A stretch of DNA of 30,874 nt from positions 1 through 30,874 of IMG/VR virus record IMGVR_UViG_3300028666_000087; one strand, 5' to 3'. The position numbers were made by a program, and so were the translations under genes. Below the pieces are notes generated by a model. It ran no database searches, had not been told where the DNA came from, and saw nothing but the letters and a program-made list of their open reading frames with translations. Each line of letters starts with the position of its first letter. Position 1 is the stretch's first letter. This document shows, piece by piece, positions 2,562 through 28,623 of this stretch. Origin of the DNA: a virus.

Positions 2562-5500
2562 TTATTGAGTATTAGTATAATTAAATGATATTGTCTTAGG
2601 TATAGAGCCAAATTTAGCTGTAATGAAATATTGTTTATCATCAATTAATCCTAATGCACCAACATTAAAATTTAAGTTCTGTGCTAAATCAACTTGATTA
2701 AGAGTACCAATACCAAGTTCATTATTTGTGATATTATCAGTAATATAAGCTCTAAAATCAGCTTCTTTTGATAATGATGTACTTCCATCAATTGTAAATC
2801 TCAAATTTATATCACCATTTACCATTCTTTCAGCTACAGCTAATGATATTCGATCAACATCGTTTTCGCTTGCACTAGGTGCCTGTGTCTGTGAACCCTC
2901 ACTAGATGTTGTATTGTCATTAGATGCAACTTGATCTTGTGATGGAGTATTATTTGCAATAGTATTGCTATCTGATAATTTGCCAAAAGCAAAAGCATTT
3001 ACATTACCATCATAATCATCATTGATCAGATTCTTGATTGAATATCCAGAGCCATTTGATTTTGCAATATAATCAGCTCTAGCATCATAAACATGTGTAT
3101 TTGCATAATAATTAAATGAAAGCGCATTTTGTAATTTATTTATCGGACCAGCAAGTGTTGATCCACCAATAAATTTAAATGAAATAGTTACATTAGCTAT
3201 CATTGGTTGAACACCAACGCCTTCTGGGTTAAGGTCCCAAACCAATGGTTCATAATCAATTGAAAGACTATCAATGATTATTTTTGTATTATAAAAATCT
3301 CCAATTCGTAATATACAAACTGGTGGTCTACCAAATGCTAGATTATTCGCACCTTGTGTTTCAAGTGTTGGTCCTTGTCTAGTACATTGTTGCAAGAAAG
3401 TAAGTCTTGAATTCAATCCTTCTGGTGTAGTAGAATGGAAAGCAGGGTGAAAGTATTTTATTTTTTCTCTGAATTTATCAAAGATAAAATTATCAGTTTG
3501 ATTTAATTTTTCAAAATAATCGCATTCACTATAAAATCTGTTTGTGATACTTGTATTTACAGTAATATTATTATTTGCTGGTGGGGTTACAGGGTCTGGT
3601 GTTATTTCACTAGCAGCTAATTGATTGTCGAAAATAAATTCGACATTTGTTCTTCTATCTGTCTTACATGAAATAGTATCAACTGGTCCATCAACAACAC
3701 AACTACTCTCGCTAGATGTTAATGCAATATTTGTTCTTGCTTTAATTCTTGAATTCTTATAATTATCATCCTTTCCAGAATATAAATTAGCTTTCAAATA
3801 TGTTACCATACTTTCAGTTCTACTATTAGCTAAAATTTCATTATAACTAGCATTACCTTGTGGACTAGCATATGAAGTAACATTAACAACACAGTGTGGA
3901 CACTTAGTATCTAAATATGTTGCTAGAGCTGAAATATATGCTGGATCAGTTATACCACTATAACTAGTTCCATCAATTGTTGTTGGATTTTTCCAACCAT
4001 TTAAACCATAATTTTCATTATCAGTCCAAGATGATTGACTTGTTACACCACCAACAAAAGAACCAATACTAAAACCAGATGTATAGACATCATAATCAAT
4101 TTTATCTGAAGGCGTTGAACCACTTAATCCACTTTCATATCCGTCAGAAAAAATAATATCCATATCAAATGAATCATTTGCATAATAAAAATCAAATGCA
4201 TCTGGTGGCGTTTCAGGAACTAGGGTTTTTGTTTGTGTCTGTGTTATATTTTTAGAAACAATTTCACTAATTTCAGATACGGTTAATTTATCAACAAATC
4301 TTTGTGATGGGTCTATACAACCAGCAAAGAATGAAGCAACATAATGATCATCAGGTCCATTGCTACCTTTAAATGAATTAACATAACTAGGATGATCAAC
4401 AATTATTTGAAAAGATAAATTTCCACCTCTTTCTGTATTGTTATATGTGTATACTGGCTCACCTCTACCAATAAAATTATTAGATTCCCAATTTGGTGTT
4501 GATGTTTCACTGAATTGAATGTTATAAGGAGGGAACCACATGATTCTACCTCTTTTTCCTGATATCAAATCTCCTGGACCTTGTTCACATGGTATTAAAT
4601 CATTAACCTTATCAAACCAAGCTAAATTTTCCAATGATAACATATATTTCTTAGGATCATCAACTGCATCAGTTGAATATGGGGATACTTTCACAAATCC
4701 ATTATCATCCAACACTGATTCACCATAAAATTGATGTCTGTATGGGTATACTTCATCTAAACCTTTATTTCTAACTAATTTAGATACTTGATCATATCTA
4801 TCTCTTGTTGTCCAACTTCTGCAATATGTTTCATCAGCTGTTTTAAATACAGAACCCCAGTGTCCATCCTCACTAAAACTGTTTTTAGACATCACTGCGC
4901 TACCTTTAGAGATTCCTAGACCAACTACTGCCGTTTGTATTTGACTGGCCTCAGAAACGCTCATATCGCCTTTAGCGGTCACTATATTCAACATTCCATT
5001 AGTGTTGAATAATAATTGAGTTTTTGCCAATAGAGTTTTTCTATCACCAACAAATGGTTGATAGTCTGGAATTGAATTTACATTACCACCTAGATTGGTT
5101 CCCCAAGAAAATGTTGGTGTTTTTATATTTGATTCACTAAAGCTTTCTAAAAATTGACTTGAGAAATCTTTAAAGCCATATTTATCAATCATTGCAGATC
5201 GATTATAACTTATTTCTGGTATTGGTCCTAATCCAGTTGTTATGAAGTTATAAATTATACCATCAGCATCACTGAAAGCATAGACATTTGGATTGATTGC
5301 TTTTTCACCTTTATTGTTCTTAAAACCTGGAGCGTATCCACTTCTAAAATGTGAAGTTTCTGGATTATCATGTACAGTTGTACCATTTATATTAGCAAAC
5401 ATATTGGCAATCAAAGCAGTTACTTGCCCTTTACCAGTATTTAAAATCATGCTATTTGCACGTTCAATATTTGAAGAATCACTTTCAGATAAAAAGATAG

Positions 5501-6494
5501 AGCCAGCATCATTCAAATAACTCTTAGGTAATGTAAATCCAAGTATTCTTGCTGTATAATCAGCTACTCGTCCACCATTACTTGAAGGAACAGTAATTTT
5601 ATAGTTTGGTCTGAATCCAGCAAGTGTACCATTTTTAACCAAGCTCAATAAATTATCTTGAACATTTAAAGACCCTAAAATATCTTGTTCAACATTGAAT
5701 GCAGCATTATTTGCCAATGCCAATGCTAATTGTTGACCACCTATTAATCCTAATTTTGTATCATTAATCAATCCTGTTGCTCCTAATACTCTACCAGCTA
5801 GACTTGCTCTAATATCAAAATTTGGTACAACACCACCTTGAGATACACCTAAGCCTTGACCATTTAAAATACTACCAATAACATTTGATGCTTGAATGCT
5901 TCCACTATCACCAATATTTAATGTACCATATGTATCTAGATATCCATTTATTTGTTGATTGAATCCTGGAGGTTGTAATGAAATCCAATCAGCTACGTCA
6001 ACTTGACTATCAGTTGATAAATATAAATTTCTTAGTGTTGCATCTTTTCTATAATTAGCAGTAACTGTTTTACCCATTAAACCATAATTGAAGACATCTT
6101 CATTTGAAGAAGTTGGATATGAATCAATACCTTGTGGAAATTGAGTATTCCCGAATGGACCTTGTGTTGTTGTAATATTATCAACAGTTAATAATGAAGG
6201 TGAATTTGGATCAGTATTCTTAAATCTATTTTGAAGAATGGCTGTATCATAACGTAATAACCCTTCTGTCTCCAATGGTAAACCAAATGGTATTGTATTT
6301 GCATTTGAGTTGATGGATGTATCTAATACTGGTTCACCAATTCTAGGACTACCATTTAATGAAGTTGATATGGTAGGATAAACTGGTAATAAATTCTTAT
6401 TTAAAAGAAAATCTCTAATACCATAAGAAACTGCAATATCGTTGATATTGTTCTTTGTACTTGGTGTTGGTGACGAAGTATTATAAAATGCCAT
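2562..6494 (-). CDS. Large baseplate/tail protein with embedded OmpA-like domain
   Basis: 1310 aa. The first 600 residues are unrecognised. Around 640-700 lie MWFPPYNIQF and GRGEPVYTYNNTERGGNLSF, a pattern seen in large tail and baseplate proteins of tailed phages. Residues about 770-955 look like an OmpA-type peptidoglycan-associated domain: FYYANDSFD opening strand, SYASPQG, YNEILANSRTESMVTYL helix with Arg, and closing strand RRTNVEFIF. The SYASPQG signature is close to the Bacteroidetes OmpA form GYASPEG. Near 1060-1120, VWDLNPEGVGVQPMIANV and QNALSFNYYAN form another phage structural block. A Ser/Asn/Gln linker and a beta-sandwich-like tail end the protein. It lies directly after the tape measure, the usual place for baseplate hub parts. 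The OmpA-like part may grip peptidoglycan during penetration; that is inference. Confidence 0.75.
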   Translation of the reverse strand: MAFYNTSSPTPSTKNNINDIAVSYGIRDFLLNKNLLPVYPTISTSLNGSPRIGEPVLDTSINSNANTIPFGLPLETEGLLRYDTAILQNRFKNTDPNSPSLLTVDNITTTQGPFGNTQFPQGIDSYPTSSNEDVFNYGLMGKTVTANYRKDATLRNLYLSTDSQVDVADWISLQPPGFNQQINGYLDTYGTLNIGDSGSIQASNVIGSILNGQGLGVSQGGVVPNFDIRASLAGRVLGATGLINDTKLGLIGGQQLALALANNAAFNVEQDILGSLNVQDNLLSLVKNGTLAGFRPNYKITVPSSNGGRVADYTARILGFTLPKSYLNDAGSIFLSESDSSNIERANSMILNTGKGQVTALIANMFANINGTTVHDNPETSHFRSGYAPGFKNNKGEKAINPNVYAFSDADGIIYNFITTGLGPIPEISYNRSAMIDKYGFKDFSSQFLESFSESNIKTPTFSWGTNLGGNVNSIPDYQPFVGDRKTLLAKTQLLFNTNGMLNIVTAKGDMSVSEASQIQTAVVGLGISKGSAVMSKNSFSEDGHWGSVFKTADETYCRSWTTRDRYDQVSKLVRNKGLDEVYPYRHQFYGESVLDDNGFVKVSPYSTDAVDDPKKYMLSLENLAWFDKVNDLIPCEQGPGDLISGKRGRIMWFPPYNIQFSETSTPNWESNNFIGRGEPVYTYNNTERGGNLSFQIIVDHPSYVNSFKGSNGPDDHYVASFFAGCIDPSQRFVDKLTVSEISEIVSKNITQTQTKTLVPETPPDAFDFYYANDSFDMDIIFSDGYESGLSGSTPSDKIDYDVYTSGFSIGSFVGGVTSQSSWTDNENYGLNGWKNPTTIDGTSYSGITDPAYISALATYLDTKCPHCVVNVTSYASPQGNASYNEILANSRTESMVTYLKANLYSGKDDNYKNSRIKARTNIALTSSESSCVVDGPVDTISCKTDRRTNVEFIFDNQLAASEITPDPVTPPANNNITVNTSITNRFYSECDYFEKLNQTDNFIFDKFREKIKYFHPAFHSTTPEGLNSRLTFLQQCTRQGPTLETQGANNLAFGRPPVCILRIGDFYNTKIIIDSLSIDYEPLVWDLNPEGVGVQPMIANVTISFKFIGGSTLAGPINKLQNALSFNYYANTHVYDARADYIAKSNGSGYSIKNLINDDYDGNVNAFAFGKLSDSNTIANNTPSQDQVASNDNTTSSEGSQTQAPSASENDVDRISLAVAERMVNGDINLRFTIDGSTSLSKEADFRAYITDNITNNELGIGTLNQVDLAQNLNFNVGALGLIDDKQYFITAKFGSIPKTISFNYTNTQ

Positions 6495-6506
6495 TATCTT
6501 ATTTAT

Positions 6507-6516
6507 TAATAAATAT
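6507..6516 (-). promoter_or_regulatory. ATATTTATTA motif upstream of the 1310-aa gene
   Basis: Sense-strand ATATTTATTA with 15 bases between the ATATTTA core and the ATG. It follows the hairpin and T-run at 6570-6650, giving the order hairpin, motif, gene that is also seen before the 383-aa and gp26-like genes. Confidence 0.45.
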
Positions 6517-6569
6517 TAAGATAATCAATTTTACTTAAAAATAAAGATCAAGTATTTTATATGAAAATA

Positions 6570-6776
6570 AGTTAAAAATAAAAAGAATCATATTCATCTG
6601 ATGCAGACCTTGAGATAAGCATTCTCAAGACTCAGAATAAATAGATTCTTTCTATAGTAAAGGGTTATTAAAGGTCTTATAAAGACATAATTTCTAGCAA
6701 AATTTAAATGGAATTATTTATAACTTTTATTATATTCTTATTTAAAACATTTATATTAGAAATAGATAATATTTTT
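6570..6776 (-). ncRNA. Candidate small RNA in the tape measure/baseplate gap
   Basis: The 367 bases between the tape measure gene and the 1310-aa gene hold no convincing protein gene. On the minus strand a host-type promoter (6813-6783) would start a transcript near 6776. About 125 bases later comes a long hairpin (6650-6583), then a T-rich run (6582-6570). The predicted RNA is about 200 nt. The longest reading frame inside is 16 codons, starting in the hairpin loop. Whether it acts in trans, regulates the downstream gene, or only ends transcription cannot be told from sequence. Confidence 0.45.
6583..6650 (-). terminator. Long hairpin followed by T-run (terminator or RNA structure)
   Basis: Minus strand, 68 bases: outer 7-bp stem AAGAATC/GATTCTT, then TATT/AATA, TCTGA/TCAGA, and an inner 7-bp stem CTTGAGA/TCTCAAG around a 7-base loop ATGCTTA. 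The sense strand then reads TTTTATTTTTAAC. The stem is AT-rich for a classical terminator but long. A second small hairpin GTCTT-ATA-AAGAC lies at 6674-6686. Confidence 0.55.
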
Positions 6777-6782
6777 ATAATG

Positions 6783-6813
6783 CAAAATTACGGTTTTTTA
6801 ACCACAATGTCAA
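6783..6813 (-). promoter_or_regulatory. Bacteroidetes-type promoter for the candidate small RNA
   Basis: TTG (6813-6811), 20 bp, then TAATTTTG (6790-6783), matching TTG...TAnnTTTG. Transcription would run into the hairpin at 6650-6583. Confidence 0.5.
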
Positions 6814-6861
6814 GTCATCTCTACAAATACTTTGTATCAAACTGATTATCAACCAAATAAT

Positions 6862-9279
6862 TTATGGTTTCTGTACTTGATTTTGAACTGTCTTACTTTC
6901 AACTTGAATCAATTTGGTTATTTGTCTTATAAATTGAGGGTCTTTCAACAAATCAACTGAAATACTACCTCCACCTGGAGTTGTTACCGTTAATTGACCA
7001 TTAATATTTAAATCACCAAATTCATGTTTGATAACATTACTCTGTGAATTAGATACTGCTTTAGCAACTGGACCAGTGTTTTTAGTTGTTAAGAAGCTAT
7101 CAGCATCATCAATTGGTCTAATCATACCTTGAGCTAATATACTTCTTTTTGTTCCTCCTTGTTGATTGATTTGATCAACAAGACTTGGTGATATACCATC
7201 ATTTACTTTATCACCATACATTTCATCACCAATAACCTTACCAGCTGTTCCACCTAAAAATGATCCACCAAGAGCACCAGCTATTGGTACAATATAAGAT
7301 AAACCACCTGTTTCTGGTGCTAAAGCAGTTGCACCAGCCCAACCAAGTCCACCACCAAGTATTCCACCAATCATACCAGTAGTATCTCCTTCTTTTGTGT
7401 CTTGATTACCAAGACTTTTAGAAATACTAGCACCTGTTGAGATACCTAAATAAGTTCCAGCGGCTACACCAATTAATGGACCAGCTATACCAGCGAATTG
7501 CTTAGCCATCATTGCAATGGCACTTCCCGTTCCACCACCTAATGTACCTATATTAAATCCTTGAGCTAATGCTAATCCATTCATTACCCAACCAGCTTTT
7601 TCCATCATCCAACCTAAACCTTTAGTTGCTAAATAACCAATTGCTGTTGCTAATGGATTATCAATCAATATACCAGCAAATTTTGAAATCCAATCACCAA
7701 CCATTCCAGCAAATTTTTCAATCTTCTCACCCCATTTTCCATCTGTGAATTTTTTCACAAGTCCTTTTATTTTAGGTAATAAACCAGTATTAATTGAATC
7801 TATTAATGGTAATAATAATACTTTAAACATATTAATAGTATTGGTCAAAGCATCATCAAAATTGATAGCTGCTTGTGCTTGTTCTTCCATGGATTTTTTC
7901 TCATTCATCTGTGTTTGAAGAGTTTTATAATCCATTTGTGTTAATTGTTTTAAGAACTTAGGTTTACCATCTACTATTATAGATGCTGTCCCGTTTTTAT
8001 CAAATGTAGCAGTATTTGCAATAAATTCTTTTTCTTCATCACTCATATTAAAAGATATTTGACTCTTAATCTCTTTAAGTTTAAATGCATTTTTACCAGC
8101 AGTGACTAAATCATCATATGCAATACCTGTTTGTTCAGCAACTTGTTTCAACCTAGACATTTCCATTGTTGACATTTGAATACTTCCATCCTTAGCAAAT
8201 TTAGCTGATGCAGCAGCAGCATTACCAATCTCCTCAGTTAACCCTTCCATATCATTACGAGCCATATACATCAAATGGAATGGATCAGCCATCTTAGCCC
8301 ATTCACCACCCAATACTTGCAATTGAGCAGACATATTAACTGCACCTTCAACATCCCATAACTTATCAGCAAACCCAGTAGCAAATTGCATATCAATACC
8401 TAATTTACTTACAGTTTCAGCCATCTTAGCTAATCCTTTAATACCACCCTTAAAGTTATAACTGTTAAGCAACTTCATATTACCAGATATATTTTTAATA
8501 ACCTTAGATGAATTAAGCCCCATTTTATGTGAATCAGTAACTGCTTGATCAAGATAATCACGTGTGTTTTTAGCCGATAGTCCTTGTTGATCCATATCAG
8601 CTACCATTTTAGCTGTTCCATCAGAACCCAAGCCAGTTGCTGCTGCTATTTGCGTAACAGCTTTAAGTCCATCTTGTGATAAAATAACATTTCGACCTAA
8701 TTCATCTGAATAATCACCTTGCATCTTAGTCAAATCCTCAAGACTAATACCTAGTTGAGTTGAATATTTTGCTCCATCTCTCATACCACTAGTAAATCCA
8801 ATACTCTGTTTGGATAATATACCCATTGTAAGAGCAGTCTTTTTCATGGACTTATCCATTTCAAATAAACCAAGACCCTTTATCTTTCCGTATCCTTGTT
8901 CAATTAAATCAGGAAGACTGGATAGTGTTTTAAGCATGGTAGCACCAACCTTGGCCATAACCATATTGGTTTTATTAGCTGATTTAAGATTATCATCTAA
9001 TGCCTTACCTTGTGCTTCTAATTCTTTTGTTTGTTTTTGTAGAATTATTAAGATATCATTTTGATTCTTTTCTTCTACCACATCACCTTTAGCTCTTGCA
9101 GCTGCTATCTTATCCCTAACCTTAGCTTCAATCTTTATATTACTAGCTATTGTTTCATTGATTGCTTTAGCTTGCTTTAAACCATTAAGATATCCTTCAA
9201 GACTAGAAGTAACAGCAGCTTGCTGTTTAGCTTGTTCTTTTAAAAGTTCTATTGCTTCTCTTATTTCCTTGTTAGTCAT
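6862..9279 (-). CDS. Tail tape measure protein
   Basis: 805 aa. The first 110 residues are charged and helical (coiled-coil-like; repeated EAIELLKEQAKQQ-type pattern). A long alpha-helical middle follows. Residues about 545-685 hold several Gly/Ala-rich hydrophobic segments (WMMEKAGWVMNGLALAQGF; IAGPLIGVAAGTYLG; IGGILGGGLGWAGA; IAGALGGSFLGGTAG) typical of tape measures, which sit in the tube lumen, set tail length and may help DNA cross the inner membrane. The C-terminus is a small beta-like tail ending VQNQVQKP. The gene starts 8 bases after the 497-aa gene, so they are co-transcribed, and it comes before the baseplate genes. Family is recognised by composition and position rather than by a motif. 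Confidence 0.85.
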   Translation of the reverse strand: MTNKEIREAIELLKEQAKQQAAVTSSLEGYLNGLKQAKAINETIASNIKIEAKVRDKIAAARAKGDVVEEKNQNDILIILQKQTKELEAQGKALDDNLKSANKTNMVMAKVGATMLKTLSSLPDLIEQGYGKIKGLGLFEMDKSMKKTALTMGILSKQSIGFTSGMRDGAKYSTQLGISLEDLTKMQGDYSDELGRNVILSQDGLKAVTQIAAATGLGSDGTAKMVADMDQQGLSAKNTRDYLDQAVTDSHKMGLNSSKVIKNISGNMKLLNSYNFKGGIKGLAKMAETVSKLGIDMQFATGFADKLWDVEGAVNMSAQLQVLGGEWAKMADPFHLMYMARNDMEGLTEEIGNAAAASAKFAKDGSIQMSTMEMSRLKQVAEQTGIAYDDLVTAGKNAFKLKEIKSQISFNMSDEEKEFIANTATFDKNGTASIIVDGKPKFLKQLTQMDYKTLQTQMNEKKSMEEQAQAAINFDDALTNTINMFKVLLLPLIDSINTGLLPKIKGLVKKFTDGKWGEKIEKFAGMVGDWISKFAGILIDNPLATAIGYLATKGLGWMMEKAGWVMNGLALAQGFNIGTLGGGTGSAIAMMAKQFAGIAGPLIGVAAGTYLGISTGASISKSLGNQDTKEGDTTGMIGGILGGGLGWAGATALAPETGGLSYIVPIAGALGGSFLGGTAGKVIGDEMYGDKVNDGISPSLVDQINQQGGTKRSILAQGMIRPIDDADSFLTTKNTGPVAKAVSNSQSNVIKHEFGDLNINGQLTVTTPGGGSISVDLLKDPQFIRQITKLIQVESKTVQNQVQKP

Positions 9280-10884: not shown

Positions 10885-11058
10885 ATGAGTAGAAATAGAT
10901 TAAAACCAGAAATGCTTAAGATCAAGTTAAGCATCAGAATCAACCCAGAATTATCCAAAATTATTACTGATTTAGAATCAAACAAGTCCAAATATATTGA
11001 ATATTTGATATATAAAGATTTAAAGGATAAAGGATTAATAAATGAAATGATGTTATGA
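10885..11058 (+). CDS. Small ribbon-helix-helix-like DNA-binding protein
   Basis: 57 aa, starting MSRNRLKPEMLKIKLSIRIN. The segment KIKLSIRINPELSKIITDLE followed by SKYIEYLIYKDL has the Arc/CopG ribbon-helix-helix pattern: a basic alternating beta strand, then two amphipathic helices. Its stop overlaps the start of the HNH gene (ATGA, 11055-11058), so the two are translationally coupled. It lies on the plus strand within a minus-strand virion module, next to the divergent 497-aa gene, whose late-type motif is under 100 bases away. It may repress its own nuclease gene or the neighbouring late promoter; that is inference. Confidence 0.7.
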   Translation: MSRNRLKPEMLKIKLSIRINPELSKIITDLESNKSKYIEYLIYKDLKDKGLINEMML

Positions 11059-11651
11059 GAACACCTAAATATAAAACTGAAGAAGAACGAAATGAAGCTA
11101 AACGTATAAATCGAAAGAAATATCGTGATGCTAATAAAGATAAGGTTAAAGAACAAATTAAAAATTGGCATGAAAATAATCCAGATAAAGCAAAGAAATA
11201 TGCTAAAAATTGGGCTACTTTAAATCCAGAAAAACGTAAAATATCTTATAAAAAATGTTTTAATAAGTCAATGACTAAAATAAAAATACGCACATATCGA
11301 AAGAATAAATTTAAAAATGATCCGCTTTATAAATTAACAACTAATATCAGATCAAGTATTAGTCAATCATTTAAAAGAGCTAATAAAAATAAAACATTAA
11401 AAACTGAACAAATACTTGGATGTTCATTCGAGGAATTTAAATTACATTTAGAAAACCAGTTCCAGCCTTGGATGAATTGGGATAATAAGGGCAAATATAA
11501 TGGTGAATTGAATTATGGTTGGGATATTGACCATTATATTCCATTGTCTACTGCAAAAACAGAGGAAAATATAATTCAATTAAATCACTATTCTAACCTC
11601 CAACCATTATGTAGTAAAATTAATCGAGATATTAAAAAAAATAAATTATAA
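11055..11651 (+). CDS. HNH homing endonuclease
   Basis: 198 aa. A Lys-rich N-terminal half (residues 1-110, coiled, DNA-binding type) is followed by the block ILGCSFEEFKLHLE and the HNH core: D159-H160 in WDIDHYIPLS, H178 and N181 in LNHYSNLQPLC, and N190. It lacks the N-terminal CxxC pair of its paralogue at 1897-2559 but shares the whole C-terminal core. It is coupled to the small RHH gene by an ATGA overlap and ends 6 bases inside the convergent tail assembly gene. Homing nucleases of this type promote their own spread between related phages by cutting alleles that lack them. Confidence 0.88.
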   Translation: MRTPKYKTEEERNEAKRINRKKYRDANKDKVKEQIKNWHENNPDKAKKYAKNWATLNPEKRKISYKKCFNKSMTKIKIRTYRKNKFKNDPLYKLTTNIRSSISQSFKRANKNKTLKTEQILGCSFEEFKLHLENQFQPWMNWDNKGKYNGELNYGWDIDHYIPLSTAKTEENIIQLNHYSNLQPLCSKINRDIKKNKL

Positions 11652-13173: not shown

Positions 13174-13203
13174 TTTAAAACGTTTGAATTTTTGTTATAG
13201 CTT

Positions 13204-13214
13204 TAAATAAATAT
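13204..13214 (-). promoter_or_regulatory. ATATTTATTTA motif upstream of the gp26-like gene
   Basis: Sense-strand ATATTTATTTA, 34 bases between the ATATTTA core and the ATG. It follows the hairpin at 13272-13311. Confidence 0.45.
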
Positions 13215-13271
13215 AGGTGAATAAGTTTTTTTGTAAATACCACTAAATATAACGACTTATTGGTAAAAATA

Positions 13272-13311
13272 AAAGGGTTTATAAATGCCTCTCGACATAA
13301 ATAAACCCTTT
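13272..13311 (-). terminator. 11-bp stem-loop between the accessory island and the gp26-like gene
   Basis: AAAGGGTTTAT (13272-13282) pairs perfectly with ATAAACCCTTT (13301-13311). Inside the loop a short ATG/CAT pair extends the symmetry around CCTCTCGA. On the minus strand the stem is followed by TATTTTTACC, so it could end transcription entering from the 14-16 kb region. The plus-strand side has a weaker T-run. Confidence 0.6.
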
Positions 13312-13344
13312 AAATAGTATTTTAACCTTAAATCGTTAAAAAAC

Positions 13345-13375
13345 TTGTTAAATGATAAAATTATATGTATATTTG
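13345..13375 (+). promoter_or_regulatory. Bacteroidetes-type promoter of the three-gene accessory operon
   Basis: TTG (13345-13347), 20 bp, TATATTTG (13368-13375). This places transcription start near 13381 and makes the ATG at 13388 the first usable start. The other strong promoters of this type here also have starts about 12-22 bases after the -7 box. Confidence 0.6.
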
Positions 13376-13387
13376 TACATGTTTTAT

Positions 13388-13531
13388 ATGATTTTAATAG
13401 GATTAGGGTTATTTTTTGGAGGATGTTCTAACCTGTTCGTAGGAGTATGGGATAAATCTTTAAAAAAGATAAATGAAATTATGATGAGTATAGGATTAAT
13501 TTTATTACTATTTTGTTTATTATACCACTAA
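13388..13531 (+). CDS. Small membrane protein (first gene of accessory operon)
   Basis: 47 aa from the ATG at 13388; in-frame ATGs at 13352 and 13379 overlap the promoter and are less likely. The start MILIGLGLFFGGCSNLF is a hydrophobic segment ending in GGC, which could be a membrane span or a poor lipoprotein signal. A short charged stretch (WDKSLKKINE) and a second hydrophobic segment (IGLILLLFCLLYH) follow, so two membrane passes are likely. Its stop touches the next gene's start (TAAATG). Not recognised. Small membrane proteins in phage accessory operons are often involved in superinfection exclusion or toxicity, but nothing here proves that. Confidence 0.6.
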   Translation: MILIGLGLFFGGCSNLFVGVWDKSLKKINEIMMSIGLILLLFCLLYH

Positions 13532-14829: not shown

Positions 14830-14861
14830 CAAAGGTACAAAAAAAATAATTAATTTACAAA
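14830..14861 (-). promoter_or_regulatory. Bacteroidetes-type promoter of the 180-aa gene
   Basis: Minus strand TTTG (14861-14858), 20 bp, TACCTTTG (14837-14830); the ATG follows 20 bases later. The -33 box overlaps the end of the upstream nuclease gene. Confidence 0.6.
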
Positions 14862-15730
14862 TTTAATTCTCGTTTTAATTCCTCAATAACCCATTCTGGT
14901 CTTTGGTTTATATCAGATTCCCAATATCTAAGTAGTTTCATATTATTATCTTTAGCTATTAGGTTTTTCCTAATATCATTACCGATTGATTTAAATTGGA
15001 TTGGATATTTAGGAATTCTATGTGTTGAATTAGGATTACAATGATGAAAATCACCATCTACTTCAATAACTGTATTTTTATCTAAAATTAGGTAATCAAA
15101 AATACATGAACTAACTTGATGTTGATATTTAAAATTAACATTTAATGTTGCTAATAATTCTTCAAATTTGGATTCTAATTTTGTTTTCTTATTTCTATAA
15201 TTATTTTTAATTAAACGTTTAATTAATCTATCAGCTTGTTTATCTCTTTCTTCTTTATTAGACCATCTAATAATAGCTGTTTTACTTAGATTTGCTTTAT
15301 GCTCATCACTTTTCTCAACACCAAATAACTTCTTAGAAATATTTGCACCACGATTTGGATTAGCCATAACCTTATCAATATTCTTTCTCACCCTTTCATC
15401 ATCAATTGTTAATCCATCATTCCATACTTTAAGGTTACCTTCATCATGCATTCTTTTTTGTGTTGCATGAGATTTTTCAAGTGCTGTTTTATTATGCCCC
15501 CAATTATTATTTATTCTAGCAGCATGTCCACGCATATAATCATTATATCCAGCATCAATACCCAAGTATTTTGGCTTATCTCCACAACCACATTTACACT
15601 TAGGTTCAATACCACCTAATATATAATCAACATATGTTTGTTCAGCATTAATCCCATGTTTCTGTCTTCTATGTCTTCTTAATGAATCTAATGATTCAAA
15701 TTCTCTATTACATTCTTTACAAACTATCAT
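14855..15730 (-). CDS. Zinc-finger homing endonuclease with Vsr-like (EDxHD) nuclease domain
   Basis: 291 aa. A C2H2 zinc finger starts the protein (C4, C7, H20, H25), followed by a Cys cluster (CKCGCG, 45-50) and a modular DNA-binding middle with a NUMOD3-like stretch (GVEKSDEHKANLSKT, 137-151). The C-terminal 110 residues resemble the very-short-patch-repair fold used by EDxHD homing nucleases such as I-Bth0305I: E186/E190, FDYLI (D212), IEVDGDFHH (E223, D225, H229), then D252 and R254, and LRYWESDI near the end. It lies just downstream of the tail tube gene in the same direction, consistent with a free-standing homing gene. Confidence 0.82.
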   Translation of the reverse strand: MIVCKECNREFESLDSLRRHRRQKHGINAEQTYVDYILGGIEPKCKCGCGDKPKYLGIDAGYNDYMRGHAARINNNWGHNKTALEKSHATQKRMHDEGNLKVWNDGLTIDDERVRKNIDKVMANPNRGANISKKLFGVEKSDEHKANLSKTAIIRWSNKEERDKQADRLIKRLIKNNYRNKKTKLESKFEELLATLNVNFKYQHQVSSCIFDYLILDKNTVIEVDGDFHHCNPNSTHRIPKYPIQFKSIGNDIRKNLIAKDNNMKLLRYWESDINQRPEWVIEELKRELNL

Positions 15731-21474: not shown

Positions 21475-21522
21475 ATTTTTCTGTTTTATTTATATTATTC
21501 TTTACTTTATCGTTTTGTTTAT

Positions 21523-21531
21523 TATAAATAT
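21523..21531 (-). promoter_or_regulatory. ATATTTATA motif upstream of the sheath gene
   Basis: Sense-strand ATATTTATA, 50 bases from the ATATTTA core to the sheath ATG, the longest spacing among the copies. Confidence 0.4.
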
Positions 21532-21570
21532 TAAGGTTTTTTCAAAAGTGGTCTACATCAAAAAGATATA

Positions 21571-21602
21571 TTAGAATTAGTAGGTTTTTTTTCATACTTT
21601 TG
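21571..21602 (+). promoter_or_regulatory. Bacteroidetes-type promoter of the small RHH gene
   Basis: TTAG (21571-21574, one mismatch to TTTG), 20 bp, TACTTTTG (21595-21602); the ATG follows 22 bases later. Confidence 0.55.
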
Positions 21603-21624
21603 ACATACTTATAAGAAAATAGGT

Positions 21625-21777
21625 ATGAAAAGGGATAAAAATATAAAGATAACAACCAAAACACATGAATTATTAAAAAAATACTGTGATCAAAATGGTC
21701 TCAAGATGTTTCAATTTGTTGAGAAACTAATTCGTGAATCTTGCTCAACAAAAAAGGATTTATACGGTGAAGAATAA
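21625..21777 (+). CDS. Small ribbon-helix-helix-like DNA-binding protein
   Basis: 50 aa. KNIKITTKTHELLKKYCDQN followed by GLKMFQFVEKLIRE fits the CopG/Arc ribbon-helix-helix pattern: a short basic beta strand, then two helices with a Gly turn. It is a single gene on the plus strand between the divergent sheath gene and the 3' end of the fibre gene, with a host-type promoter. The position, just upstream of the sheath late-type motif, would allow control of late transcription, but no operator is identified. Confidence 0.68.
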   Translation: MKRDKNIKITTKTHELLKKYCDQNGLKMFQFVEKLIRESCSTKKDLYGEE

Positions 21778-21787
21778 ATCAAATTTA

Positions 21788-24700
21788 TTAATTATATCTC
21801 ATTTGTAAATAACTGACTGTTGATGTTACTGAGTTAGCAGCTGTTGTTGCTGTTGTAACTAATCCAATTACATATAAACCATCTGTTGGTAATGCAAAAT
21901 CACTTCCTACTACATTTGTTGTTGTTCCACTTGCTGGTGCGATAATCGAAGTAGTTTGACTACCAGATACAACGGTACCAGCACTAAATGTAATATTAGT
22001 TGCTGTACCACCAGTTACTCTAACTGGATATAAGCCAAAAGTATAACCACCAGTAGGTGCTATGTTATTTGTTGATAAACTTGCTCTGATTCTTAACTTT
22101 GGATTTAAACCATTAATAGCTGGATAATCAGCAGCTACTATATTAATATAAGCAATACCGACACCTCCAGCTGCTGTTGTATTACTTTTAACAGCTGTAT
22201 TAAGTTGTCCTGTTATTAAAAATGTACCAGCAGCTGTAGCTGTTCCTAATAATATACCACCAAATACTAATGTTGTATATCTAGACATTGTAGTATTAAT
22301 ATATGTCATTAAATCAGTAGCACCAGATAAAATAGGAACATCAAATCTTGTTGAGGCTGACGTAACAGTAACTCTTGTATTAGCAGAATTAGTTCCATCA
22401 GTAAAAAATTGAATATTTTTACTAGCAGTAGCGTTTCCAATATATAAATTATTCCCTGTTGAATAAACATAAGCATCATTTGCTATCCCAACAATATCAG
22501 TATAACCAGATGAATTAATCCCCATATCAATAAAATTGATATTTTCATTACCATTATTAGCAGTTGCAACTATATCTGATGATGCACTTGTACCTGAATT
22601 TGAGTTAGTAATATTGAATTGAGCATAATTATTAGTATTTGCTTTAGCAACAATAGTATTAGAATATGCAGTTGCTGCAACCCCATCATCAACTAAAAGT
22701 CTTTCTGTGTTAATTGTATTAAATGCTGTCAAACCAACATCTAATCTAGTTGATGCAGTAACAGTAATAGCTGATATAGTAGTGGCTGTTACTGTGCTTA
22801 AAACTGTTTTTGATGCAACATTTAAATTACTACTATAAAGCGTATTATTAGTTGCTCCTGTTATATTATCACCTAGGACTATTGTACTTGACCCTATTGC
22901 AATACTATTATTTCCATGAACGAATGATGTATCACCTGATGCAATGGATGAATGACCACCAGCATGACTTTTGTCACCTTTTGCAGTTGTATTATCACCT
23001 TCAGAATGACTACTAACACCTAGTGCTGTTGTTTGTGATCCTTCACTATGACTTTGAATCCCAGACGCTATTGAATTACCACCTTCAGCATGTGAATTAG
23101 TTCCAATTGCTGTTGAACCACCACCTTCAGCATGAGATATCAATCCAGATGCAATACTTCCATTACCTTCAGCATGTGAATATAATCCACCAGCTATTGT
23201 TAAATAACCTTCACTATGTGTATAATCATTAAGTGCTGATGTACTAAATCCTTCAGCATGAGCTGTGAATCCAGATGCTGTAGTTGAGTCACCTTCACTA
23301 TGTGAATAAGTTCCTATGGCTGTTGTTTGAAATCCTTCAGCATGACTTGCAGCTCCAATTGCTGTTGTTGGTGTGGCAAATACAAAGTTTGGATCACCAC
23401 CTTCAGCATGACTTGCAGTTCCAAGTGCTAGAGTATTATAGCCTTCAGCATGGGATGTTTGACCACTTGCTGTTCCTGTTCCTTCACCATGTGAATTATC
23501 ACCATATGTAATTGAACTATTTTCAGCATGTGAATATAATCCATTAGCTGTACCAAAATTCTCTGAATGAGAATAATCAGCATTTGCACTTGATGAGCCT
23601 TCAGCATGGGAACTAGCTCCATTTGATACACTTGCATTACCTTCTGCATGTGAGAAGTCACCATTAGCATTTGTACTACCTTCTGCATGACTTGCAGTTC
23701 CAAGTGATAATGAACCTAAACCTTCAGCATGTGAATAGTTTCCTTGTGATGTTGAGTTACTACCTTCAGCATGACTGGTGAATCCTGATGCTGTTGTATT
23801 ATTACCTTCAGCAACTGCATAGTTACCTATAGCATCAATTGCTGTATTATTATTTGCTCTTATTGAAAATGTTCCTGTACTTCCTGATTTCCATGGATCA
23901 GTTGTTGTTCCTGTTGAACTGATTACTGTATTACCAATTGTAAGTGTACTTGAACTAGAAAGAACAATATTATTTGTATAAAGAGTATTTGAACTTGTTC
24001 CAGTCATATTATTTCCCAATACAAATGAATTAATTGTATTAGCACTAATAGCACTATTATTACCCATTATAAATGAGTTTTGACTTCCACCACCAATTCT
24101 TAAACTACTACCCATGGCAAAGCTATCTCTAGAACCTCCATCAATAAGTATATTATCACCAATAGCTAAGCTACCACTTGACATTTGAGATATCGTTACA
24201 CTATCACCAATAGCAACACTTCCAGTTGAAAGACTTAAACCACCAGCAAGATTTATTACTTGTCTTGGTCTTGTATATGGAATATATGGAACTGCTGATC
24301 TTCCTTTGATAACTGTTTTATCATTAACCTTAATTAATTCAACCTTACTAGGCATATTGCTTGTAAGTGTATATTCAATCTTATTTACAATAAAATAATG
24401 ACCACCATCTGAAGTTAATCCATCAACGAATATGCTATCAGAGAATTTGAAATTTTGAATATCAGCTGGACTTAATTTGAAATAAGCTGTAATCAATTTG
24501 CTGTTTTTATCTGCAATTTGATCAAGATATGTTTTCCAATAATTATTGATAAGATTATTATCTGTAATATCTGGAAGTGTATAATATTCATAATTAACTG
24601 TACCAAATGAAATATCTGTATCCCCTGAGAACGGGTGATTTAGCATGCCAAGGTACGGAAATTGATTATAGATATTTCCTTCAAATTGCCAAGTATCTGT

Positions 24701-26563
24701 TGATAATGGTAATAAGTTACCTGAGTTCTTTTGAAGAATTCTTATATTGAAATTGGTTGCACCGAATTGATCGTTGCTATCAACCTTACCAATCTTAGGA
24801 ATAACAAAGTCATTTACAACTTGTGTTGTAATACCAACTGGTACAAATAAGTTTGATTCTAATACTGGAATACTTGGTGTTGGACTGAATATCAAATCAA
24901 TATTCTTATCATCCTTTACAAAGTCATTATCAATTATATAATAGTAATCACCAAATATCTTATTAGTTACTGTTGAATAATCGTTATTATAATAATCACT
25001 ATCATTTTTATAAGAGAAAATAAATCTCTTATTAGTTTGTTCTGATAAAACAACTTCATTAACCTTTTGTGATTCATCTAATAATTTTGACCAATCTTTT
25101 GTTGTACCACCAGAATAATATTGATCTCTTGGTAATATGGTTAAATGTTTTGAATTATTAACATCAGAAACTACATATAAATTATGCATATTTATGATGC
25201 TATTTAAAAATTCAATTTGCTTGATCTTAGATGGAATAAGAAGATCATAATTAAGAACTTGATTTGGAATTGCTTGAGTACTAACTGAATTACTAAAGAA
25301 TGTACCAGATAAATAAATATTGATGGTTGCTGTATAAGCAGTTCCAATACCAGTTAAGTCAGCAGCTTCAACAACAAGATTTGCCCATACAGCCTCTCCT
25401 GGTTGAATATAATAGAAAGGATTTCCTGAATTTGGATTATCACAAGGAGCTGATTCATATGCTTCAATATACTGTACATTTCTTGAAACATGAGGTACAG
25501 TTGTATTTAAAACACTTTGGAATGGTTGTGTACCATTCATATAACCTGATCTGAAGAATCTAGCACCTCTTATAATACCATAAGTAGAACCAAGATTTCC
25601 TGTTGATGCTGATAACATCCAATCTAATTGAACCTTAAATGATTGAATAGAAAGAGTATCAGCTGTATATTTAAATGTACTTGGATTGAATAAGCTACCA
25701 TTATCAAATGCAGGGAATACAGTTGTATTATTAAATTGACCTATTGAATCATAAGTAATACTTAAATTGGCATTTGATTGAGGATTAACTGTACCAGAAA
25801 AACTAACATTCAATTTAGGTTGAACATTAAATTGTTGTCTCTTTGCCCAAGCTTGTGTATTATTGAAATTGGTTGTTCCATTAAATGGAATATATAAATT
25901 CTTAAAATATGTTGAATCAAATAGAGTACTTGAATATGTAAATCCAGCACCACTAAAAATCTTATCAACTATTGTTTTAACTTGAGTAGCTGGATAGAAT
26001 TGATTAACTGTCATACCAGTTCCATTATTCAATTGAGTGATATTCAAATCATATCCATAATCCATCATAGGATAGAAATAAGGTTGACTTGAACCAGTCC
26101 ATGAAGCTGTAATACTTGAATAACTCCAAGTATGATTCAATCCAGAGAAGCTAAGATCAGTTAATTCTCTATCACCAATAGCATCAATAAGGTCCTCAAC
26201 TTCATCAAATACACTTACTTCATAAGTAATGCTCTTTTGATCATCAACGTTGATAGCTGTTAATTGAAGATTACCATTTGTCATTACTGGAATTGTATCC
26301 ACAAGTAATTGACAAGGTGTTTTCTTTCTTGGATCAAATTGAGAATCTGATCCTATTTCAAATAAGAAATTGAAAAGGGTATTGTTGTTTCTTGTACCAG
26401 GAACGGTGAATGATTGAGAAAAGGTTGATTTACGTGTCTTTATGTCCTTAATGTCAGATACAGCAATACTAAGAGTAATTGGTTCTGAATCAAATAAATC
26501 CAGAATACCTACTGCTGTACTACCACTAGTGCCATAAACAAGAATTTCAACGTTTGAATTCAT
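21788..26563 (-). CDS. Long tail fibre/baseplate-anchored adhesin with SHAEG (YadA-head-like) repeats
   Basis: 1591 aa. Residues 1 to about 770 are an anchor-like region with RKSTFSQSFTVPGTRNNNTLFNF near the start, a pattern common to large tail proteins of Bacteroidetes phages. Residues about 775-870 hold repeats such as STGSVAIGDSV and DSFAMGSSL, and residues about 910-1230 hold about 20 copies of a 13-14-residue SHAEG repeat, which folds as a beta-roll in YadA-type trimeric adhesins. Next comes a block SSDIVATANNGNENINFIDMG, then ATASKNIQFFTDG, as in phage fibre shafts, and a 230-residue beta-rich tip ending VSYLQMRYN, probably receptor-binding. Expected to be a trimer. No intramolecular chaperone is obvious. 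Confidence 0.85.
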   Translation of the reverse strand: MNSNVEILVYGTSGSTAVGILDLFDSEPITLSIAVSDIKDIKTRKSTFSQSFTVPGTRNNNTLFNFLFEIGSDSQFDPRKKTPCQLLVDTIPVMTNGNLQLTAINVDDQKSITYEVSVFDEVEDLIDAIGDRELTDLSFSGLNHTWSYSSITASWTGSSQPYFYPMMDYGYDLNITQLNNGTGMTVNQFYPATQVKTIVDKIFSGAGFTYSSTLFDSTYFKNLYIPFNGTTNFNNTQAWAKRQQFNVQPKLNVSFSGTVNPQSNANLSITYDSIGQFNNTTVFPAFDNGSLFNPSTFKYTADTLSIQSFKVQLDWMLSASTGNLGSTYGIIRGARFFRSGYMNGTQPFQSVLNTTVPHVSRNVQYIEAYESAPCDNPNSGNPFYYIQPGEAVWANLVVEAADLTGIGTAYTATINIYLSGTFFSNSVSTQAIPNQVLNYDLLIPSKIKQIEFLNSIINMHNLYVVSDVNNSKHLTILPRDQYYSGGTTKDWSKLLDESQKVNEVVLSEQTNKRFIFSYKNDSDYYNNDYSTVTNKIFGDYYYIIDNDFVKDDKNIDLIFSPTPSIPVLESNLFVPVGITTQVVNDFVIPKIGKVDSNDQFGATNFNIRILQKNSGNLLPLSTDTWQFEGNIYNQFPYLGMLNHPFSGDTDISFGTVNYEYYTLPDITDNNLINNYWKTYLDQIADKNSKLITAYFKLSPADIQNFKFSDSIFVDGLTSDGGHYFIVNKIEYTLTSNMPSKVELIKVNDKTVIKGRSAVPYIPYTRPRQVINLAGGLSLSTGSVAIGDSVTISQMSSGSLAIGDNILIDGGSRDSFAMGSSLRIGGGSQNSFIMGNNSAISANTINSFVLGNNMTGTSSNTLYTNNIVLSSSSTLTIGNTVISSTGTTTDPWKSGSTGTFSIRANNNTAIDAIGNYAVAEGNNTTASGFTSHAEGSNSTSQGNYSHAEGLGSLSLGTASHAEGSTNANGDFSHAEGNASVSNGASSHAEGSSSANADYSHSENFGTANGLYSHAENSSITYGDNSHGEGTGTASGQTSHAEGYNTLALGTASHAEGGDPNFVFATPTTAIGAASHAEGFQTTAIGTYSHSEGDSTTASGFTAHAEGFSTSALNDYTHSEGYLTIAGGLYSHAEGNGSIASGLISHAEGGGSTAIGTNSHAEGGNSIASGIQSHSEGSQTTALGVSSHSEGDNTTAKGDKSHAGGHSSIASGDTSFVHGNNSIAIGSSTIVLGDNITGATNNTLYSSNLNVASKTVLSTVTATTISAITVTASTRLDVGLTAFNTINTERLLVDDGVAATAYSNTIVAKANTNNYAQFNITNSNSGTSASSDIVATANNGNENINFIDMGINSSGYTDIVGIANDAYVYSTGNNLYIGNATASKNIQFFTDGTNSANTRVTVTSASTRFDVPILSGATDLMTYINTTMSRYTTLVFGGILLGTATAAGTFLITGQLNTAVKSNTTAAGGVGIAYINIVAADYPAINGLNPKLRIRASLSTNNIAPTGGYTFGLYPVRVTGGTATNITFSAGTVVSGSQTTSIIAPASGTTTNVVGSDFALPTDGLYVIGLVTTATTAANSVTSTVSYLQMRYN
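22880..23830 (-). repeat. Tandem SHAEG-coding repeats in the fibre gene
   Basis: About 20 imperfect coding units of 39-42 bases, each giving a consensus S-H-A/S-E-G, x4, A-x-G, x2. One unit carries an 8-residue insertion (GDPNFVFATPTTAIGAA). Arrays like this can change copy number by recombination and so vary fibre length. Confidence 0.85.
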
Positions 26564-26612: not shown

Positions 26613-28055
26613 TTAACTTCTTTGTCCGTTGATTGTAAAGGCTGATTCAAGATTAAATGAATACATGATCATCTTATTATTGATGGTTTTTTGTATTTCA
26701 ACACTTTGTTCAAGTACATTAACTGGAAGACAAGTTCCATCTGGTTGAATAATATTCACAACTGAACTGGTAAGTAATTCCTCCATCCAAGCTGATTCTG
26801 CATCATCCATCCAATTTGAATTAACTGTAAATACATAATTGCCATTTACATCCAATACTGTCTTTTCTCTTGCACCAACTGAATAATTATAATCAAGTCT
26901 CTTCTTGAAATAAGATTTAGTTGTATTAACTGTTTGTCTTGAAACCATATCAAAATTGACATAATCATAACCTCCAAGTCTATTTAAGAATTGAAGTCTT
27001 ACTCCATCATATTTTGAACATCTACCATCAATTAAATATAGTATTGATTCAGATATAAATCCACCACCACCAACTAAAGCAACAGTATATTGATAGTCTC
27101 TTGTTATATTTATTGTATTAGCTGACATACCATTAATATTATAAATTCCAGATGGAATATGAACAATATCATTAGTATTAGGAATTGTTATAGGAATATT
27201 TGTAGTAAGTGTACCACCAGAATTTTGATAAGTAATAACTCTTATAATATTTGCTGTTGTTAAATAGTTAAAGAATGAAAGTGTTCCTCGATTAGTATTT
27301 TTTAAATATACACCGTTTCTTGGCATATTGGTTAAGAATTTCTTACTTCCAGTAGTACCTGTCATGATATAGCTAAGATAATTCCAAGATGGAATTTCAT
27401 CATATTGATTAACACCATTAAATGTATAACCAGTATAACCAGTCAATCCAGAAATGGTTGTAACTCGTCTATCAGAATAAATAGTTGTTCCAGTTTCAGC
27501 TGATGAACCAGTAGCAGATGTAATACTTGTAATTATTTGATATGGATTAGGAACAGCCAATACTGTCCAAGTTCCTGTAAATTGAGGATTTTGAGCTGGA
27601 CTTTGATGTGTAATTGTGATAACATCACCACTTGAATAATAGTGTGGTGTAGAACCAGTAAAACCAATATTAGCTGTAAAGGCTGTATATGGGAAGGTTG
27701 AGAATGCATTACAATAAAAATAATCAGAATAATTCCAATTGTATTGATATTCCTCTCCAAAATTAACCTTATATGAAGTATAATGATTAGTTGAAGCTGT
27801 AATTGTAACTATATTTTGAATATTAGAATCAAATGATAATTTAGATTCAAGAATTCTGGCTGGATTATAAATACAAGTAGTATCAGGTCTTGGAAGCATT
27901 TTTACTGTGCTTAAGATCGTTGAAGCATTAAAAGGTGAATAGAGTTGAAATACATACTTAAATAGACCTTGAGATGTATTTGTAGATTGTACATCAAAGT
28001 ATATAGGATTATAAACTGGAGATATAATCGAAGGAAGAGAATTAAATGTTATCAT
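26613..28055 (-). CDS. Tail/baseplate structural protein, unknown role
   Basis: 480 aa. The start MITFNSLPSIISPVYNPIYF opens a beta-rich protein with long Thr/Ser/Gly strands. The C-terminal third has IDGRCSKYDGVRLQFLNRLGGYDYVNFD, then KKRLDYNYSVGAREKTVLDVNGNY and WMEELLTSSVVNII, a pattern I associate with conserved tail proteins of Bacteroidetes phages. No enzyme motif. It lies directly upstream of the fibre gene, so it may form part of the fibre attachment. Its first 14 bases are overlapped by the GIY-YIG gene, whose product begins with a near copy of this protein's N-terminus. Confidence 0.72.
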   Translation of the reverse strand: MITFNSLPSIISPVYNPIYFDVQSTNTSQGLFKYVFQLYSPFNASTILSTVKMLPRPDTTCIYNPARILESKLSFDSNIQNIVTITASTNHYTSYKVNFGEEYQYNWNYSDYFYCNAFSTFPYTAFTANIGFTGSTPHYYSSGDVITITHQSPAQNPQFTGTWTVLAVPNPYQIITSITSATGSSAETGTTIYSDRRVTTISGLTGYTGYTFNGVNQYDEIPSWNYLSYIMTGTTGSKKFLTNMPRNGVYLKNTNRGTLSFFNYLTTANIIRVITYQNSGGTLTTNIPITIPNTNDIVHIPSGIYNINGMSANTINITRDYQYTVALVGGGGFISESILYLIDGRCSKYDGVRLQFLNRLGGYDYVNFDMVSRQTVNTTKSYFKKRLDYNYSVGAREKTVLDVNGNYVFTVNSNWMDDAESAWMEELLTSSVVNIIQPDGTCLPVNVLEQSVEIQKTINNKMIMYSFNLESAFTINGQRS

Positions 28056-28623
28056 TATTATATCTTTTTAAATTTGCTATTTTAATTTGTGCAATTTTCA
28101 TTCTTAGCTTTTGTTCTTCAGTTCTTTTTTGACCTGTATGTGATAAAGACATTTTTAATTTTGTTTCATCTGAAACGACTCTTTTAGCTAAAAGAGTTTT
28201 CATTTTATTTATTGTTTCTTCTGAATGTTTTTTACCATAAAAAGCATTATTAGCACCTTTGTTTAATTTACTTAATTTCTTTTTAGTTTCATCACTTGTT
28301 ACATTACCACTTTTTCCTTCACCTCCATCTGTCATATTAACAAGTGGTCCTTTACCTTGATCTTTTCGACCTATTCTATTAATCCAATAAATCTCTTTTT
28401 CTAATGCTTGTTCTTCTGTTAATCCTTCTTCAAGCATAATGATATCAAATCCATGTTTATTAACAATATTATGCCACCAATTATTTCTATGTTGTGTTCT
28501 AGTAGCTCTTCTACCATTACCTTTACCAACATAAAATGGAGAACCATCTGTTAATCTTATATGTAAATATATATAAAATACAGGTGATATTAGAGCTGGT
28601 GTACTTATAAAGCTTATTGACAT
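28042..28623 (-). CDS. GIY-YIG homing endonuclease with NUMOD3 repeats
   Basis: 193 aa. GIY-YIG core: FYIY (16-19), FYVGKG (30-35), Arg 38/39, catalytic E77 in LEKEIYWINRIG and N96 in VNMTDGGEG. Two NUMOD3-type DNA-binding motifs follow (SDETKKKLSKLNKG at 110-123; SDETKLKMSLSHTG at 151-164), with a basic C-terminus. The gene starts 2 bases after the 101-aa gene's stop and ends 14 bases inside the 480-aa gene. Its first 16 residues, MSISFISTPALISPVF, are not part of the nuclease fold and closely resemble the first 15 residues of the 480-aa protein, so it seems to have taken over that gene's original start. Confidence 0.93.
   Translation of the reverse strand: MSISFISTPALISPVFYIYLHIRLTDGSPFYVGKGNGRRATRTQHRNNWWHNIVNKHGFDIIMLEEGLTEEQALEKEIYWINRIGRKDQGKGPLVNMTDGGEGKSGNVTSDETKKKLSKLNKGANNAFYGKKHSEETINKMKTLLAKRVVSDETKLKMSLSHTGQKRTEEQKLRMKIAQIKIANLKRYNNDNI

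Follow-up and report, generated by a model that had tools for sequence, protein, structure and literature searches.

A conserved promoter and easily melted DNA in a tail-gene gap of uncultured phages as a candidate replication origin

The window analyzed here is the whole 30,874-nt stretch of IMG/VR virus record IMGVR_UViG_3300028666_000087, a 30.9-kb fragment of a phage record. A gap of 367 bp at positions 6495-6861 separates an 805-aa tape-measure-like gene from a 1310-aa gene, both on the minus strand. The gap and its flanks comprise the following features:

6862..9279, minus strand: P0002, the upstream gene, coding for the 805-aa tape-measure-like protein, named from its size and its place between tail tube and baseplate genes
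6842..6853, unstranded: palindrome GTTGATAATCAG, a candidate protein-binding site
6783..6813, minus strand: host-type promoter with a -33 TTG, a 20-nt conserved spacer and the -7 element TAATTTTG; predicted start near 6778
6698..6778, minus strand: A+T-rich transcribed segment, a proposed DNA unwinding element from melting energies and AT/TpA content
6575..6650, minus strand: long imperfect hairpin and T-run, terminator-like, containing a 16-codon frame; private to the window phage
6498..6547, minus strand: late-type promoter block of the 1310-aa gene, CTTTATTTT...TTAATATTTAT, from motif comparison with relatives
2562..6494, minus strand: P0001, the downstream gene, coding for the 1310-aa tail/baseplate-region protein; its ortholog follows the unit in relatives with enough flank

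PHROG and Pfam searches with the tape-measure-like protein returned no match. A previous sequence-only reading described this gap as the only one above 300 bases, which depends on the minimum frame size accepted: when frames down to 50 aa are counted, the second largest gap measures 178 bp, but when only frames of 60 aa or more count, 13174-13531 (358 bp) and 21475-21787 (313 bp) are also frame-free. The AT-rich stretch without a gene that it placed after the promoter is present in the gap.

Searches of cultured phages by DNA and protein similarity gave no match to the window, and neither did a search of GTDB genomes for a host link. Relatives were found in IMG/VR, with 60 loci in a first search and 336 confirmed by a later profile search, of which the best 80 were kept. 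The gap was compared in about 55 relatives with tape-measure proteins mostly 34-50 % identical. L004, L005 and L174 derive from a single near-identical contig and do not count as independent. The tree of tape-measure proteins is deep, with end branches of median 0.27 changes per site. Every relative having both flanking genes also has the gap, usually of 200-400 bp, with a fixed order running from the tape-measure stop to the promoter, the AT-rich body, often a hairpin, the late-type promoter and the next gene.

The minus-strand host-type promoter was correctly recognized from the sequence and corresponds to TTGACATTGTGGTTAAAAAACCGTAATTTTG at 6783-6813. Under the -5 numbering of the Flavobacterium -7 element (PMC6847099), transcription is predicted to start near 6778, close to the 6776 originally proposed. 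The window contains six exact TTG-N20-TANNTTTG sites against 1.33 expected, and since these match the Bacteroidota sigma promoter consensus (PMC6847099) they suggest a host in the phylum Bacteroidota. Among the six, only the copy at 6783-6813 has the conserved spacer. This promoter scores 48.8 bits, is the sole window site above 10 bits, and scores 39.5 bits with similar members left out of the scoring. The promoter is found in nearly all gaps compared, with near-fixed spacing, a conserved spacer, a consensus of roughly CTTGAC[T/A]NTGTGG-N-AAAAAACCGTANNTTTGNAT and about one such site per genome. Scored by leave-one-out, the spacers of gap promoters mostly reach +9 to +22 bits, compared with a mean of -11.4 bits (sd 9.9, maximum 10.2) for the spacers of 287 host-type promoters elsewhere in these genomes; the exceptions, with low or negative scores, are L018, L029, L033, L043, L048 and L064. 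The A-tracts of the spacer are in part shared with Flavobacterium promoters generally (PMC6847099). The gap promoter is the best-scoring site in eight of the ten long contigs having any site above 10 bits, and a scan of 2.9 million IMG/VR contigs with the promoter pattern matched 18 contigs, all at the same tail-gene gap wherever flanks permitted checking. Roughly one third of relatives have a GTTGATAATCAG-type site 40-62 nt upstream of the promoter.

Downstream of the promoter, the transcribed body has a narrow length range (median 121 nt in relatives) and holds no frame in most members. Comparison of the ~80-120 nt after the promoter among relatives revealed no conserved or alignable sequence, only AT-repeat DNA. 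What recurs is physical instability. Ranking the 100-bp stretches of each contig by nearest-neighbour energies, we analyzed 17 contigs of 82-369 kb and found the gap body to be the least stable of all in 14 (nine of the first 11 long contigs, then five of six genomes held out); the genomes compared are related, so that these ranks and the site counts below are not independent events. The exceptions are G007, where it is third, G010, where it is sixth and the gap is flanked by unknown bases, and G020, where it falls outside the top six. The window's own AT segment is the second least stable 100 bp of its 31 kb. Gap length alone does not explain the melting minimum, because most of these genomes have longer intergenic gaps elsewhere. 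TpA is the easiest-to-melt step, and the gap body carries 21.7 TpA steps per 80 nt, compared with 16.4 after shuffling and 15.0 in intergenic DNA of the same AT content elsewhere. In the ~3 Mb scanned, host-type promoters that lead into an 80-nt stretch of at least 92 % AT are confined to 11 gap sites and a single site elsewhere, G016:365990, upstream of a short gene.

The predicted unit is ~217 nt, in line with the transcript of about 200 nt foreseen from the sequence. The 68-base hairpin and T-rich run are present at 6583-6650 and statistically significant: hairpin and T-run together (76 nt) fold at -22.6 kcal/mol with a z of -3.63 and none of 200 shuffles as good, whereas folding of the whole predicted transcript is less significant (z -2.42). 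The 16-codon frame inside the hairpin, MLISRSASDEYDSFYF, is also there and has no counterpart in the relatives compared. Conservation of the hairpin itself did not hold up, as 4.2 Mb of sequence from relatives contains no homologue of it and it is private to the window phage. The idea that it is a repeated or mobile element was rejected, given no second copy in the same 4.2 Mb. About half of the gaps (29 of 52) instead carry an analogous short GC-rich hairpin and T-run, with at least two standard pair types at each stem position; in the other 23 such a terminator was not found, some of these gaps being cut by contig ends. A separate unit of transcription, with a host-type promoter within the late module and a terminator in about half of the gaps, is strongly supported and recurs in many relatives.

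That the product of this unit is a small RNA, as the sequence-only reading proposed, fares less well. Such a gene would yield a hairpin-ended RNA of ~90-200 nt acting in trans, either through base pairing or as a sponge for an RNA-binding protein or nuclease with a preference for AU-rich RNA. The dedicated promoter, the narrow body length without a frame in most relatives, the intrinsic terminator that many of them keep with many pair types in its stem, and the significant window hairpin all speak for it. However, the body is unalignable AT repeat, the long hairpin of the window is private, the GC-rich terminator was not found in the 23 gaps noted above, and a few relatives have a protein gene in the unit and would make mRNA from the same promoter. 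The enrichment in TpA is easier to reconcile with DNA melting, given that this step is fragile in RNA. A search against Rfam gave no match above the gathering score, and a tRNA/tmRNA search found nothing. We therefore regard a small RNA gene as rather unlikely.

The same unit could also act in cis, as a leader in which early transcription with termination or read-through times the 1310-aa protein. It always lies directly upstream of the 1310-aa gene, and the late block of that gene is unusually long. Two motifs, the host type and TATTTATA, are over-represented at gene starts genome-wide (in G004, 70 versus 0.9 expected and 74 versus 11 expected), and the latter, presumably a late promoter, is present in the block before the 1310-aa gene in most relatives. 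The block is not a mere copy of a general late promoter: its core TATTTATA is general, but in its full 65-bp extent it is close to unique in each genome. Because its own block, downstream of the terminator, contains this late-type motif, the 1310-aa gene does not need the host-type promoter. No conserved antiterminator pairing is found, some relatives have a whole other gene in the leader, and a leader leaves unexplained why the segment is the least stable DNA of the genome, all of which makes this reading improbable. The TATTTATA/GATATTTATA motif is also strongly enriched upstream of genes in G002, G004, G006, G007, G009 and G014, and G006 encodes two sigma-factor-like proteins.

Quite improbable, in our judgement, is a non-coding U/A-repeat RNA that would function by composition only, tying up an RNA-binding protein or nuclease of the host in the early stage of infection. 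Selection would then act on promoter strength and AU content with no sequence conserved.

A minority of relatives carry cargo inside the unit. L019, L034, L044 and L048 encode a protein of 162-185 aa that has two UVR (UvrB/UvrC) motifs, whereas L057 has a TnpB-like frame and another relative a nucleotidyltransferase-like frame, the last two named by eye. It is highly improbable that the gap is an ancestral promoter-gene-terminator cassette whose UVR-motif gene was lost in most lineages, as the scatter of its four carriers over the tree might suggest, since a decayed cassette would not retain the genome's most conserved promoter or a melting minimum, and in the gene-bearing G009 and G014 the AT segment is the genome minimum and precedes the gene. 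Cargo-bearing relatives as a whole are scattered over the tape-measure tree; cargo is optional, and the promoter and unstable segment are not.

The constant parts of the locus are thus a promoter and extreme DNA instability, which indicates a DNA element. One host-type promoter followed, in syntenic position, by DNA that in most cases melts more easily than any other in the genome makes a DNA replication origin more likely than a regulatory small-RNA gene. By analogy with known phage origins, we give about an even chance to the gap being, in a T4-like Bacteroidota phage, a transcription-primed replication origin that also produces a short terminated RNA. Host RNA polymerase would initiate at the conserved promoter, whose sequence is observed and whose activity is predicted, and would transcribe the segment that by calculation is the easiest-melting DNA of the genome in most relatives. 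As in T4 and T7, the RNA could remain paired with its template as an R-loop, its 3' end priming leading-strand synthesis toward the 1310-aa gene while the opened strand lets in the phage helicase/primase. The hairpin would stop primer transcription short of the 1310-aa gene's late promoter, insulating the late module, and a phage factor may read the conserved spacer and set the timing.

This scheme has close counterparts in T4. The origins oriF and oriG consist of a promoter and an A+T-rich unwinding element of replaceable sequence, with an R-loop priming the leading strand, and oriE apparently depends on an early promoter (PMC3016281). Like oriF (ori uvsY) and oriG (ori34), the gap has one promoter and then, within ~100 bp, a proposed A+T-rich unwinding element whose sequence is free to vary, is sited near baseplate or tail genes, and belongs to a phage group with T4-type replication and recombination proteins. 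These proteins are found mostly in the relative G006, which encodes a gp32-type SSB, a UvsX-like recombinase, a DnaB/gp41-type helicase, a primase, SbcCD and a ligase; the window fragment holds none. In nine genomes the distance from the gap downstream to a DnaB-type helicase gene is ~17-21 kb. Unlike the T4 origins with their MotA-dependent middle promoter, the gap has a promoter of host sigma type, for which reason we do not file it with oriF and oriG even though it may work like oriF. It also differs from oriF in mostly lacking a gene where T4 has the uvsY transcript, in often having a terminator, and in usually being the melting minimum of its genome, which oriF is not in T4. With oriE the gap shares an early (host-type) promoter in a baseplate late region, and small frames, repEA and repEB, lie near oriE; in T4 the transcript is antisense to gene 5 and there are iterons, whereas in the gap it is sense and no iterons are seen. 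The stable small RNAs rnaC and rnaD of T4 are likewise short non-coding phage transcripts, but they lie in a tRNA cluster and the gap body consists of unconserved AT repeats with its own promoter.

Applied to T7, the stability calculation placed the four least stable 60-bp sites just after phiOL, phi1.1B (the primary origin), phi6.5 and phiOR; we take phiOL, phi6.5 and phiOR to be origins too. The T7 primary origin (phi1.1A/B and an A+T-rich stretch) resembles the gap in that a promoter runs straight into DNA ranking among the least stable of the genome, but it relies on a phage RNA polymerase with its own promoters and on other replication proteins. In T4 only oriA ranks high (3rd-9th), and oriE, oriF and oriG are unexceptional. 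The melting-minimum method therefore supports an origin without proving one.

Several points weigh against an origin. Hybrids rich in rU:dA are weak, instability is a weak guide to origins in T4, the window segment is only second in 31 kb, and G007, G010 and G020 are not rank 1. Neither GC skew nor third-position skew switches at the gap; both track gene strand and are uninformative. The segment at G016 (L268) 365990, the second least stable site of its 369-kb contig, has a further promoter and a 103-aa gene behind it and is a possible second origin.

We know of no mapped replication origin for this large phage group, and our literature search turned up no closely similar phage RNA or origin. 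A promoter and a melting minimum at one syntenic place offer a concrete, testable origin candidate for a group in which no cultured relative was found among the collections searched. They also provide a rule for other uncultured phages, namely to look for a near-unique promoter whose spacer is conserved and behind which the DNA of the genome is at its least stable. They further caution against taking every orphan promoter-terminator unit of a phage for a small-RNA gene.

The remainder of the window holds several further elements. A TnpB/IS605 OrfB-type protein (Pfam OrfB_IS605, Cas12f1-like TNB) is encoded at 402-1520 on the minus strand, and a 106-aa gene at 1596-1916, which has no family match, is unusually conserved as DNA (up to 85 % identity) in many relatives. 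A 96-bp inverted pair, 79 % identical, joins 1957-2052 in an endonuclease-VII-like gene (1897-2559) with 11520-11615 in a plus-strand gene (11055-11651). Likely homing/HNH-type endonucleases stand amid structural genes at 14855-15730, with a C2H2 zinc finger and a DUF559 domain, and at 28042-28623, both on the minus strand, and the 1591-aa protein at 21788-26563 has internal repeats at 23000-23810.
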